In this document: piece by piece, positions 19,754 through 49,315 of the stretch
Position numbering within the stretch: the stretch's first letter is position 1
Layout: each line of letters starts with the position of its first letter
Source: Hymenobacter nitidus
GTDB taxonomy: Bacteria; Bacteroidota; Bacteroidia; Cytophagales; Hymenobacteraceae
Direction of reading: 5' to 3'
NCBI RefSeq assembly: GCF_020447315.1
Contig: NZ_JAJADQ010000002.1
Coordinates: 310,001-374,000, forward strand
DNA: 64,000 bases
Notes under the pieces: model-generated
Databases searched by the model: none
Told to the model about the DNA's origin: nothing
Seen by the model: the letters and a program-made list of their open reading frames with translations, nothing else
Position numbers and translations under genes: made by a program

Positions 19754-20005
19754 TAGGTTAGTAAGGCATGTATGCTATGGGGTAAGGGTGTTTTGCCTTG
19801 GGTGAATCGTGTTTTCGATAAGGGAAGGAGAGTCTTAGGTCGGGTAAATAGTGTTTTGCACTAGTTAAGCAGTGTTTTCGATTGGGGCAGAGGTGTTTTG
19901 CCTTCGGCAACTAGTGTTTCGTGTTTGGAAACTGGTGTATTGCGGAAGGGAGAGGGTGTTTTCGGTTAAGGAAGGAGCGTTTTGCCTTCGGCAAATAGGA
20001 TTTTC
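19754..20005. repeat. 21-bp phased degenerate tandem array A
   Basis: Twelve consecutive 21-bp units run from 19754 to 20005, with no insertion or deletion between units. Each unit ends (plus strand) in a conserved core TGTTTTS, S being C or G. The cores end at 19795, 19816, 19837, 19858, 19879, 19900, 19921, 19942, 19963, 19984 and 20005; the first unit (19754-19774) is degenerate. The other 13-14 bases vary between units. Two units contain the hairpin-forming TTTGCCTTCGGCAAA. The array lies between two divergent genes and ends 120 bp before the ATG at 20126. No encoded protein is supported. Confidence 0.8.
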
Positions 20006-20125
20006 AGAGCAGCAAGGCAGGTAGGGGGTGGGGTTGGTATTGTTGAGCAAGTCGGCTACTTTGTAGCTGGTGAGCAGGCGCTTACCACGCCGGGCAGAGC
20101 GGTTCTGCCAGTTATAAGCAGTCAT

Positions 20126-20874: not shown

Positions 20875-20972
20875 GATGTAGAGACGCATACTTGCGTCTT
20901 AATCGTTGTTTATTCCGCATTATACCCACGCGTTATCGTTCAACGGGGAGACGCAAGTATGCGTCTCTACAT
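20875..20972. repeat. Inverted pair of REP elements (left of RAYT)
   Basis: Two copies of a 25-bp element with core GAGACGCA...TGCGTCT lie at 20875-20899 and, inverted, at 20948-20972. Each copy is itself palindromic (GAGACGCA / TGCGTCTC) and carries an outer GATGTA/TACAT tail that fixes orientation. The same element occurs twice more on the other side of the RAYT gene. Confidence 0.85.
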
Positions 20973-20997: not shown

Positions 20998-21555
20998 CTA
21001 GCGGAACAGGCCTTCTTCGGCAGTTTGCTCGTGCTGCCAGCGGGTGGGGTTGGTGAGGATGTAGTGGCGGATTTTGTCTAGCTCCTCGGGGCTGCGCACA
21101 ACCCGGTCGTGGTAGCGGGGCTGCCAGGTGAGGGGCAGGTTGGCGCGGCGGGCCTGGGCGGTGGTGCCGGCTTTGAAGCCGCGCAGGATGGCCGCCAGAT
21201 TGTCGCGCTGGGGCGTGAAGCGGTTTTCGTAGTGCAGGGGCGGGGTGGGTTCGGTGGGTTTATCGAACAGCAGCAGGCCGTGCAGGTGGTCGGGCATAAG
21301 GATAAAAGCATCCAGCAGCACGAAGGGGAAGCGGGTCGGTATATGCTGCCAGGCGGCGGTAACCAGAGTGGCTACGGGCGTAGGGTGCAGGGCGGCTCGG
21401 TCCCAGTCGTGGTCGGGCACGAGGATGTCGCCGAAGTAGCGGGTGCGGTGCTGGGTGCAGATGGTGACGAAGTAGGCCCCGTTCTGCCCGTAGTCGTAGC
21501 CCCGCAGCCGGGTCGAGGCCACGCGGTATTTGTCATGGTATAATTCGGTAGCCAT
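20998..21555 (-). CDS. REP-associated tyrosine transposase (RAYT, Y1/HUH family)
   Basis: The 185-residue protein has the HUH metal motif HLH (His90, His92) inside AFILMPDHLHGLL, the N-terminal YFVTICTQ strand, the RAYT signature WQPRYHDRVVRSPEELDKIRHY and the candidate nucleophile Tyr165. RAYTs cut single-stranded REP DNA and are thought to spread REP elements. Full length and intact motifs suggest it is active. Inverted REP pairs on both sides (20875-20972 and 21570-21677) make a complete REP-RAYT unit. Confidence 0.92.
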   Translation of the reverse strand: MATELYHDKYRVASTRLRGYDYGQNGAYFVTICTQHRTRYFGDILVPDHDWDRAALHPTPVATLVTAAWQHIPTRFPFVLLDAFILMPDHLHGLLLFDKPTEPTPPLHYENRFTPQRDNLAAILRGFKAGTTAQARRANLPLTWQPRYHDRVVRSPEELDKIRHYILTNPTRWQHEQTAEEGLFR

Positions 21556-21569
21556 ATATTATATAGAAC

Positions 21570-21677
21570 GATGTAGAGACGCATACTTGCGTCTCGGCGT
21601 TGAACGAGGACGCCGGGGTATAATTCAAGGTAAATAACGTCAGCAACGATTGAGACGCAAATATGCGTCTCTACATC
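21570..21677. repeat. Inverted pair of REP elements (right of RAYT)
   Basis: The same element as on the left lies at 21570-21595 and, inverted, at 21652-21677. The copies differ from the left pair at one or two positions in the centre (CATACTTG versus CAAATATG). The 56 bp between them is not conserved with the left pair. Confidence 0.85.
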
Positions 21678-26179: not shown

Positions 26180-26281
26180 GCTGTAAGTTTATGGGTAGTA
26201 CTCCGCAATAAATATATAAGCACTTGGGTAGGTAAGGCACTCGGTGCCGATATGCCGCCCCGTTGAGGCTAGTTGCCCAAG

Positions 26282-26554
26282 TGTCATTAGCTGCGGCCGA
26301 GGCGGCAAGGGCTGGTGGCGGGGTGACATGGGCTTTAACGGACTTGACAAGAGCGTTGCACCCGGTGGCATGAACCTCAACGAGGGTGGCAGGAGGTTGA
26401 AATAAGGTGACATGAACCTTGACAGAAGTGGCATGAGGTTGAAATACTGTGACATAAACCTTGGCGGGCCTGACATGAACCTTGGAGGAGGTGACATGAG
26501 GTTCACCGAGCCTGACAAGAGCTTTAATGAGGGTGTCACGGGACTGAACAGAGG
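26282..26554. repeat. 21-bp phased degenerate tandem array B
   Basis: Thirteen consecutive 21-bp units run from 26282 to 26554. The plus-strand core is TGACATGA (variants TGGCATGA, TGACAAGA), starting at 26324, 26345, 26366, 26387, 26408, 26429, 26450, 26471, 26492, 26513 and 26534; the two units before 26324 are degenerate. Just after the core the units switch between AACCT and AGGTT, which are reverse complements of each other (for example 26408 against 26429, and 26471 against 26492). Remaining bases vary. Because 21 is a multiple of 3 the array stays open in some frames, but no gene is supported. Confidence 0.8.
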
Positions 26555-47500: not shown

Positions 47501-48040
47501 CTACGCTACCGACTTCTTAAGCTTGTCGCCAAACACGGCTTTCACCTTATCAACTTTGCTCTTCACCACGAACTGGCAATAGGGCTGGGAGCCGTTCAGG
47601 TTGTAGTAGTTCTGGTGGTAATCCTCAGCGGGATAGAACTCTTTCAGCGGCACGATTTCGGTCGTGATGCCCTTGTCGAAAGCCCCGGCCTCGGTGAGCT
47701 TCTGCTTGTACTTTTCGGCCAGGTGCTGCTGCTCCTCGTTGTGAAAATAAATTCCGGAGCGGTACTGCGTGCCCACGTCGTTGCCCTGCTGGTTGAGCGT
47801 CGTCGGGTCGTGAGTTTTCCAGAATACCTCCAGCAGCTCCTCGAAGCTAATCACCTGCGGGTCGTAGGTAATCTGAATCACCTCGTTGTGGCCGGTCAGG
47901 CCGCTGCACACTTCCTTGTAAGTGGGATTGGCGATGCGGCCGCCCGTGTAGCCCGACACCACCTTCTGTACTCCATTCAGATTCTGAAATACGGCTTCGG
48001 TGCACCAAAAGCACCCGCCGCCAAATGTGGCTTGTTCCAT
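47501..48040 (-). CDS. msrA: Peptide-methionine (S)-S-oxide reductase
   Basis: From ATG 48040 (MEQATFGGGCFWC) the enzyme has 179 residues. Catalytic Cys10 is in GCFWCTEAVF, followed by family parts GYTGGRIANPTYKEVCSGLTGH and YRSGIYFHNEEQ. It repairs oxidised methionine in proteins or free form in the cytoplasm. The open frame extends nine codons upstream from the ATG without similarity to the family. Array C ends 87 bp upstream of its start. Confidence 0.95.
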   Translation of the reverse strand: MEQATFGGGCFWCTEAVFQNLNGVQKVVSGYTGGRIANPTYKEVCSGLTGHNEVIQITYDPQVISFEELLEVFWKTHDPTTLNQQGNDVGTQYRSGIYFHNEEQQHLAEKYKQKLTEAGAFDKGITTEIVPLKEFYPAEDYHQNYYNLNGSQPYCQFVVKSKVDKVKAVFGDKLKKSVA

Positions 48041-48126
48041 TATGGTTATATCAAAAGTCCAACTCAATAGGCAATACTGTATAAGCGAATTCCCCCGCCG
48101 AAGGTTTCAGGCCGCACTTTATACGC

Positions 48127-48351
48127 GCTTCAGGAAGCAGGCCTTGCCCAAGCGTCCGGGCCCGGCCCGCTTCTCGAAGCAGCAGGCACTAGGATCAACT
48201 ACAAGGATCTGCTTCGAGAAGCGGGCAACTCCAGCAGCTATTGAAGCCTGCCGCTTCTCGAAGCAAGCGCCTGCACGAACCCGCAAAGGCCCTTGCTTCG
48301 AGAAGCGGGGCATTTCTGTAACACCGGACATGATTTGCTTCGAGAAGCGGA
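48127..48351. repeat. 42-bp phased palindromic array C
   Basis: Six palindromic 12-mers start at 48127, 48169, 48211, 48253, 48295 and 48337, exactly 42 bp apart. The core is GCTTCGAGAAGC or its reverse complement GCTTCTCGAAGC; the first copy is degenerate (GCTTCAGGAAGC). Each core belongs to an oriented 15-mer TGCTTCGAGAAGCGG, in the order reverse, reverse, forward, reverse, forward, forward. The five 30-bp intervals are unrelated in sequence. It lies in the msrA upstream region, between msrA and the terminator of the next gene. The flipping orientation and short repeat make it unlike CRISPR. Confidence 0.85.
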
Positions 48352-48366
48352 GCTTTTTTTCAATAC

Positions 48367-48401
48367 AAAAAGCCCTTCCTGAGCAATCAGGAAGGGCTTT
48401 T
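48367..48401 (-). terminator. Terminator of the 3-hydroxyacyl-CoA dehydrogenase gene
   Basis: Arms 48367-48382 (AAAAAGCCCTTCCTGA) and 48387-48401 pair over 15 bp with a 4-nt loop, 24 bp past the stop codon at 48425. Confidence 0.85.
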
Positions 48402-48424: not shown

Positions 48425-49315
48425 TTATTTCTTAAACCGGTCGGCCACGATGAGGTCCTTGGTACCGTGGCCCCAGGTGTAGAAGCCCTCGCCCGACTTC
48501 ACGCCCAGGCGGCCGGCCATCACCATGTTTACCAGCAGCGGGCAGGGGGCATATTTGGGGTTGCCCAGGCCCTCGTGCAGCACTCGCAGAATGGCCAGGC
48601 ACACGTCCAGACCAATAAAGTCGGCCAGCTGCAGTGGGCCCATCGGGTGAGCCATACCGAGCTTCATAACCGTATCGATTTCCTCCACGCCGGCCACGCC
48701 CTCGAACAGGGTAATGATGGCCTCGTTGATCATGGGCATCAGGATGCGGTTGGCCACGAAGCCGGGGTAGTCGTTCACCTCAGTGGGCGTTTTGCCCAGC
48801 TGCCGCGAAATCTCCATAATGCGGCTCGTCACCTCATCCGACGTCGCGTAGCCCCGGATTACTTCCACCAGCTTCATCACCGGCACCGGGTTCATGAAGT
48901 GCATGCCGATGATCTTGTCGGCACGCTTGGTGACGGCGGCAATCTTGGTAATGGAAATCGAGGAGGTATTCGACGCCAAGATGGCGCCGGCGGGGGCGTG
49001 CTGGTCCAGGTCGCGGAAGATCTGCAGCTTGAGGTCCACGTTTTCGGTGGCGGCTTCCACCACCAGCTCCACGTTCTGCACGCCTTCGGCAATGCTGGTA
49101 AAGGTGCGGATGCGGCCCAGGGTCGCCGTTTTCTCATCCTCCGTGAGGGTGCTTTTGCTCACCTGCCGGTCCAGGTTTTTGCCGATGGTGCCCAGCGCCT
49201 TGTCCAGGGCCGGCTGACTGATATCAATTAACGAAACCTGGAAACCATGCTGGGCGAAAACGTGGGCAATACCATTGCCCATGGTGCCCGAGCCAATAAC
49301 GGCGACATTCATCAT
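48425..49315 (-). CDS. 3-hydroxybutyryl-CoA dehydrogenase
   Basis: The 296-residue enzyme oxidises L-3-hydroxyacyl-CoA with NAD+, or runs in reverse. The Rossmann motif GSGTMGNGIAHVFAQHG is near residue 8; the catalytic His is in GMHFMNPVPVMKLVEVI; the C-terminal domain reads HPMGPLQLADFIGLDVC and ends SGEGFYTW. Two adjacent Met codons (49315 and 49312) are possible starts. It has a good promoter at 49387-49417 and a terminator, so it is a single unit. Confidence 0.93.
   Translation of the reverse strand: MMNVAVIGSGTMGNGIAHVFAQHGFQVSLIDISQPALDKALGTIGKNLDRQVSKSTLTEDEKTATLGRIRTFTSIAEGVQNVELVVEAATENVDLKLQIFRDLDQHAPAGAILASNTSSISITKIAAVTKRADKIIGMHFMNPVPVMKLVEVIRGYATSDEVTSRIMEISRQLGKTPTEVNDYPGFVANRILMPMINEAIITLFEGVAGVEEIDTVMKLGMAHPMGPLQLADFIGLDVCLAILRVLHEGLGNPKYAPCPLLVNMVMAGRLGVKSGEGFYTWGHGTKDLIVADRFKK

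Follow-up and report, generated by a model that had tools for sequence, protein, structure and literature searches.

The closest described counterparts of the array reported here are REP sequences and the BIMEs built from them. REPs are extragenic imperfect palindromes, given as about 20–60 bp in size (PMC3116915) and as numbering over 100, or hundreds, per genome (PMC2817692; PMC3116915), and BIMEs are described as regularly spaced palindromes of alternating orientation, with inter-REP segments in Stenotrophomonas that lack homology and vary in length (PMC2817692). Tandem REP clusters and REPINs in Pseudomonas fluorescens SBW25 are described as likewise ordered palindrome arrays, some of them evenly spaced, the families being high in copy number and the spacing 72 and 112 bp for GI and GIII REPs (PMC3116915). 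Direct-repeat sets of the intergenic heptamer TAACTGA have been reported, also in five Bacteroidetes (PMC4679880). One class of element, BIME-2, is described as binding gyrase, and the direct repeats of CRISPR arrays are given as 24–48 bp long. In plasmids, iterons are two-turn repeats (about 21–22 bp) that lie on one face of the helix.

Array C lies in a 64,000-nucleotide stretch of the Hymenobacter nitidus genome (the window; genome G000, contig C21, 310001–374000), in the intergenic region with hbd on one side and msrA on the other, between a terminator-like repeat and the msrA leader (Table 1). It consists of six 12-bp GCTTC-NN-GAAGC palindromes with a step of exactly 42 bp, their starts running from 48127 to 48337, as an earlier note on this DNA had described. 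That note gave a single sequence for all six, which holds for five, exact copies of GCTTCGAGAAGC or its complement, but palindrome 1 has a different centre (GCTTCAGGAAGC); the stated order of orientations (reverse, reverse, forward, reverse, forward, forward) is confirmed at the same five positions, with palindrome 1 oriented from its flank only. Among the exact copies, the centre and both flanks (central dinucleotide, preceding base and following bases) change orientation as one, at constant register. Allowing one mismatch, the 12-mer has eight matches in the window, five of them inside array C, compared with a mean of 0.39 and a maximum of three in dinucleotide shuffles. The 15-mer TGCTTCGAGAAGCGG has five copies in the whole 5.54-Mb genome, every one inside array C, and is absent from the 38 other genomes searched, and GCTTCNNGAAGC has 24 sites across the genome, six of which are those of array C. 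A decayed second array with the array C core is probable at C27:21594-21773, where exact cores lie 168 bp (4 × 42) apart in a 42-bp register and two 42-bp pairs inside have 2 and 3 mismatches; two further pairs with 3 mismatches from the same search were taken as chance. An order-wide pattern search (at most one mismatch) matched 6 of 390 genomes, with five pairs each in G000 and G041, and one pair in each of four others, also taken as chance. The GAAACCTTC element between array C and msrA is present in all nine intergenes examined for it, and Rfam at gathering thresholds gave no match within the window.

Table 1. Features of the window, with positions counted from its first nucleotide
Feature	Position	Strand	Remarks
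Array A	19772..20019		same class as array C, built on 21 bp, best lag 84
Array B	26260..26546		same class as array C, built on 21 bp, best lag 42
msrA, peptide-methionine (S)-S-oxide reductase	47501..48040	-	NCBIfam TIGR00401, 222 bits, cut-off 108
GAAACCTTC element	48100..48108	-	between array C and msrA
Palindrome 1, GCTTCAGGAAGC	48127..48138	-	variant centre; strand read only from flank
Span with five 30-bp intervals (palindromes 2–5 between)	48139..48336		eroded framework copies, z 6.1 in register
Palindrome 2, GCTTCTCGAAGC	48169..48180	-	
Palindrome 3, GCTTCGAGAAGC	48211..48222	+	
Palindrome 4, GCTTCTCGAAGC	48253..48264	-	
Palindrome 5, GCTTCGAGAAGC	48295..48306	+	
Palindrome 6, GCTTCGAGAAGC	48337..48348	+	
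Perfect 15-bp inverted repeat, terminator-like	48368..48401		beside array C, 3' end of hbd
hbd, 3-hydroxybutyryl-CoA dehydrogenase	48425..49315	-	NCBIfam NF004474, 421 bits, cut-off 408

The earlier note held that the 30-bp intervals between palindromes share nothing, and took array C not to be a tandem repeat; neither statement stands. Identity among the intervals is 0.37, versus 0.29 (sd 0.02) in shuffles, and the intervals match a framework, roughly GG.GGGCTTT.GCAATT.CAAAAACGCCCC, that is common to arrays with other cores. We represented this framework by a weight matrix made from 11 intervals of other-core arrays (four from G017, three each from G050 and G041, and one from G049), and scored the array C intervals in the better orientation, for the data and for 2,000 shuffles alike. 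The five intervals sum to 17.7 against a null of -63.7 (sd 13.4; z 6.1), a score that none of the 2,000 shuffles reached, with individual z values of 1.5, 1.8, 4.4, 2.1 and 3.8; the score is best at shift 0, and a one-base shift of register drops the sum to -23.7 or -44.8. This in-register match to a framework that accompanies other cores makes array C a tandem repeat: each 42-bp unit combines a palindromic core of 12 bp, which has been held, with a roughly symmetric framework of 30 bp, which has drifted. The shared framework makes it unnecessary to invoke independent insertion of units into unrelated sequence, as in the orientation-blind insertion suggested earlier; the flips would need no insertion machine, since palindromic units could pair and convert either way without leaving register. 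Conservation of intervals between units in relatives, which had been regarded as adverse to the earlier interpretation, is indeed found, the identity between units in G041 being 0.55 compared with 0.31 in shuffles.

For comparison of the same locus in relatives, the nearest 30 hbd loci were taken, 29 of which have msrA adjoining. The strongest period is 42 or 84 in seven of these 29 intergenes (z 6.3–12.2), with a GCTTCGAGAAGC core in G000 and G041, a GGGACTTGTCCC core in G048 and G017, a CAAGGCGACA-type core in G050 and G067, and a GCTGACCAGC-like core in G049. Loss of the 42-bp spacing at most homologous loci, which the earlier note had counted against its reading, is not seen wherever an array exists, all seven arrays keeping 42 or 84, although 20 of the 29 intergenes have no array (top z at most 3.1). 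The G001 intergene has a weak 42-bp signal (z 4.5), and a single unit is recognisable by eye in G069 (top z 3.1, not at 42). Single 41-bp steps are present in the G048 and G017 arrays, and offsets such as 46 and 38, which regular expressions gave for G049, G050 and G067, are ascribed to flipped or variant cores. Among 11 further loci (L107–L117), an msrA match lies nearby in nine, and two of the nine have arrays. One is Hymenobacter lucidus BT178 (L107), whose intergene is of the same length as that of G067 and identical to it over the 200 bases compared; the other is the distant Hymenobacter MAG 339R (L117), in which five GCGNGTACNCGC-like palindromes, a fifth core type at this place, follow in steps of 42, 43, 42 and 43 bp, and whose array is shown by G117 too. 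At 42.5 bp, the average step in this MAG comes close to four helical turns and is divisible by neither 3 nor 7.

A tree of hbd and msrA (16 rows, with three of 13 inner branches firmly supported and the bootstrap not settled) groups G048, G049, G050 and G069 (90/94, below the tool's mark for firm support). Every core type within this group is different, G069 being judged from its single unit, and outside it GGGACTTGTCCC recurs in G017, the CAAGGCGACA type in G067, and CTTCGAGAAG in G000 and G041. The four core types are thus not distributed as the (poorly resolved) species tree would predict. Because relatives keep the place and the spacing and carry different palindromes, spacing rather than sequence seems to be preserved. 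Of the two explanations first offered for array C, selection acting on a symmetric site whose spacing is fixed remains the best reading, since the 42 bp is kept while the palindrome is swapped.

The contrast between cores and intervals also appears when identities are compared. Core identity is 0.94 (G000) and 1.00 (G041) within GCTTCGAGAAGC arrays and 1.00 (G050), 0.96 (G041) and 0.76 (G017) within GGGACTTGTCCC arrays, values that are inflated by the expressions used to pick cores, which fix 7–8 of the 12 bases and leave out motif-less units (for array C, all six units entered the comparison). Between the two types, core identity is 0.37–0.44, with shuffles at about 0.29–0.30, whereas interval identity is 0.37–0.63 within arrays and 0.41–0.50 between these types; the most variable part between arrays is therefore the least variable within one.

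Array C resembles REPs and BIMEs in being an intergenic set of regularly spaced palindromes of mixed orientation, with a 12-bp core in a longer, partly symmetric unit, as expected of an extragenic imperfect palindrome. Its orientations run R R F R F F, mixed without alternating. It departs from them in several respects: its core is not dispersed in high copy, its period is fixed at 42 bp, unlike the variable inter-REP lengths described for Stenotrophomonas, and its framework is retained across species whose cores at this one locus differ. The RAYT relative encoded in the window is flanked by a palindrome other than that of array C, and the SBW25 clusters, as described, differ in their 72- and 112-bp spacing and high copy number (PMC3116915). 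CRISPR arrays share with array C a regular spacing and diverse intervals, but we rejected this assignment, as the earlier note had, on the grounds that the repeat is 12–15 bp, its orientation flips and the intervals are mutually related. Plasmid iterons differ in that array C is chromosomal, lies beside hbd and msrA rather than a rep gene, and has units that flip. The phage and plasmid matches that had been suggested as a check did not appear, the whole of array C giving no BLAST match to plasmids or phages at E up to 0.01; a GGGACTTGTCCC array likewise gave none to plasmids, and viral pattern scans returned one contig each, with two exact motif copies and no array, which we treated as chance. 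The account of the TAACTGA sets concerns one heptamer repeated directly and, in the part describing them, no 42-bp palindrome-cored unit (PMC4679880). The three-repeat operator of RptR, as described, was set aside as unrelated to array C. With REP/BIME failing on copy number and cognate transposase, and CRISPR and coding repeats failing as well, we class array C as an intergenic palindromic repeat array, closest to REP/BIME but not assigned to any named family. We found no description of such arrays in the open-licence PMC literature searched.

To place array C among other repeats, we surveyed about 2.05 Mb from five genomes (454 kb from G000 and 400 kb from every one of G041, G048, G049 and G050), calling genes by a simple codon-usage script and seeking lags of 12–110 bp in non-coding DNA. 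Forty-nine rows reached a z of at least 6, from which nine with period 14 or 16 (7- and 8-mer repeats) and four that look like CRISPRs (period 64 or 65) were set aside. The period is 21, 42 or 84 in 34 of the 36 remaining non-coding arrays, the others having one period of 43 and one of 33; these 34 are not independent, coming from 15 loci in related species, and by locus the count is 15 of 17. The G049 array of the msrA locus is outside this count, with a spurious gene call there as the likely reason. Density varies among the 34, from four in 454 kb of G000 to 12 in 400 kb of G050. Arrays are present in at least two species at eight loci, and core types recur: the GGGACTTGTCCC type is found also away from the msrA locus in G041, G049, G050 and again in G017, the CAAGGCGACA type in G050 both at the msrA locus and elsewhere, and the TTGTCAC..GGTCA type at two loci. 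Small 80-kb samples from five distant Hymenobacter gave no 21/42/84 array at a z of at least 6, and three of them had a match at another period (88, 96 and 12). Of four other families sampled (80 kb), G034 gave matches at 14 and 15 and a 21-bp match (z 7.2) that we read as the start of a coding gene on the other strand, missed by the gene caller.

Arrays A and B of the window belong to the same class, and the earlier description of 42 bp as twice their period was loose: both are built on 21 bp, but array B scores best at 42 and array A at 84. Arrays are also found at the array B locus in G041, G048, G049 and G050; the sequence is alike in G000, G041, G048 and G049, and in G050 the locus additionally holds a type that G041 and G048 carry at a different locus. 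Dyad symmetry stands out in some arrays only: in 14 of 35, no more than two of 60 column shuffles reach the observed value, two being the number for array C. Symmetry is therefore a feature of certain families, whereas the period is common to nearly all of them. Gene contexts are mixed (co-oriented, divergent and convergent), which makes a single regulatory role unlikely. Co-oriented genes flank 12 of the 15 loci in one species or more, with a convergent or divergent call in another species for two of the 12; of the other three, two lie only between divergent genes and one between convergent genes. Among all intergenes of at least 200 bp, 361 of 604 are co-oriented.

The length of the unit is nearly constant. 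Of 166 adjacent 42-mer pairs, 161 were callable and 155 of these have a lag of 42, the six others being 41 (three times), 43, 36 and 50; a simulated rate near 0.005 indels per substitution yields the same fraction, a figure to be read with a detection by constant lag that favours indel-free arrays and also sets the array ends. Alignments of 847 orthologous non-array intergenes, with pairs below 0.55 identity dropped, have 0.29 gap openings per mismatch, partly alignment noise. An aligner-based count for the arrays was less clear, its 0.132 gaps per mismatch falling between simulations at 0.088 (substitutions only) and 0.168 (one indel per ten), and, also against strict constancy, a shifted continuation past an end was detected (z above 3) in 10 of the 34 arrays (204 tests).

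We give about an even chance to the proposal that array C is one of a set of helically phased, palindrome-centred repeat arrays that form a putative protein-binding or architectural platform in a group of Hymenobacter species. The proposal starts from what the arrays display directly: their unit structure, locked period, flips, different cores at one place, and types at several loci. A period locked to 21 bp or a multiple of it would correspond to two, four or eight helical turns. We suggest that arrays are renewed from a few founder units and homogenised by recombination, that a nearly palindromic unit can be copied in either orientation, producing flips that leave the register undisturbed, and that selection would hold the length if the cores must share one face of the helix. 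The cores would then most likely be bound by a dimeric DNA-binding or architectural protein, or by a topoisomerase, and may be exchanged en bloc with a change of founder or of preferred protein; by analogy, the closest known function would be the gyrase binding of BIME-2. The absence of outstanding dyad symmetry from many arrays, the mixed gene contexts and the lack of an array between hbd and msrA in most relatives count against the proposal.

A more far-reaching form of the proposal, which we offer tentatively and think rather unlikely as a whole, is that of a chromosomal system in at least one Hymenobacter group, with many intergenic arrays on a two-turn ruler, cores replaced as blocks while framework and spacing are kept, and putative binding proteins. 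If this were true, one locus would pass through different core types, and the system would be the bacterial counterpart of fast-evolving satellite or centromere DNA with the proteins that bind it. A common sequence is what usually identifies intergenic repeats in bacteria; here the common property is geometry: unit length is tied to whole helical turns and, in array C's family, a symmetric core is replaced as a block. Searches by sequence similarity or by RAYT/REP signatures would miss this class. If confirmed, the variants at one locus would offer a natural series for asking what selects helical phasing, and whether a protein family of changing specificity tracks the arrays.

Possible, although we doubt it, is that the arrays are neutral, satellite-like repeats, arising by tandem duplication and slippage, with nothing bound and with 21-bp steps of mutational origin (for example, template switching at palindromes). 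This would account for the complete turnover of sequence at one locus, the lack of an array at the hbd–msrA locus in most relatives, the many arrays without a significant dyad and the mixed gene contexts, but it sits less easily with cores that are near-identical within an array while intervals erode, with lengths kept though sequences drift, and with the recurrence of a 42–43-bp spacing at the same place, with another core, in the distant lineage of the MAG.

We consider it improbable that array C arose from hairpin units of the REP/BIME type, spread in both orientations by a Y1 (RAYT) transposase. The regular, alternating BIMEs with non-homologous inter-REP segments described for Stenotrophomonas (PMC2817692) invite such an origin, and the window does encode a RAYT relative at 20998–21555 (- strand; NF047646, E 7e-15, 55 bits, below the cut-off of 80). 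This gene, however, is flanked by another palindrome, GAGACGCA-N4-TGCGTCTC, at 20948–20967, 21576–21595 and 21652–21671, which has 25 sites in the G000 genome, singly or in small groups, and the five copies of the array 15-mer are all confined to array C. Matches to Pfam Y1_Tnp are present in array-bearing G041, G050, G067 and G017, but absent (E 0.001) from array-bearing G000, G048 and G049, while present in 83 of 120 genomes, a weak test in that the model misses the RAYT relative of the window. The same model, with the same limitation, found no other RAYT genes in G000; we note that the REP/RAYT-like system at 20998–21555 is thus one that Pfam Y1_Tnp overlooks in Hymenobacter.

Less probable again is a role of the palindromes as RNA hairpins in a transcribed region. 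Folding is indeed much stronger for both strands than for dinucleotide shuffles (z -7.2 and -7.8), but any array of DNA palindromes in mixed orientation would fold so on both strands; moreover, array C sits behind the terminator-like repeat and ahead of the msrA leader, and in G017 and G048 array units have one-sided losses of pairing that, judged by eye, go uncompensated. Similarly, although the joint flipping of centre and flanks at constant register is as expected of a substrate for a site-specific recombinase, with 42-bp steps inverted or deleted and palindromic arms around a 2-bp asymmetric centre, we think this very improbable, given that cores differ among loci, so that one recombinase could hardly serve all, and that 42 bp is short for synapsis. 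A coding repeat of 7 or 14 residues per unit, for which the divisibility of 21 and 42 by 3 and an excess of open frames over column shuffles (60 vs 45; in array C, two of six frames are open in the part tested) might speak, is largely refuted by the 7 of 34 arrays without an open frame on either strand, by the six departures in lag (41 three times, 43, 36 and 50) and by the 42/43-bp steps of the MAG array, and we give it next to no credence.

Several further repeats came to light in the same genomes. In G000, another 42-bp palindromic array, with core GTCACGACTGTGAC, lies at C21:25742-26036 (L048:5742-6036), flanked by hisS and hutH as read from their translations. Three-unit arrays of 42 and 43 bp are present between convergent genes in G041 (C1:1262174, L104, and C1:1090762, L095), with units that are inverted repeats, TGTACCTTATT..AATAAGGTACA and TGTAGAA..TTCTACA, whose arms differ and whose inner part (CGCCGGAATA/CACCGGAATA) is alike. 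The same genome has about 16 copies of a near-perfect intergenic heptamer, TTGGTGC, at C1:986800-987050 (L090), and arrays that are CRISPR-like by appearance, with a conserved repeat of ~30 bp and a period of 64–65, at C1:1066000-1069000 (L094). Finally, A/T content inside the 34 arrays of the five genomes peaks at a 7-bp period (z 10.6 versus column shuffles), which is the strongest harmonic in several array families.
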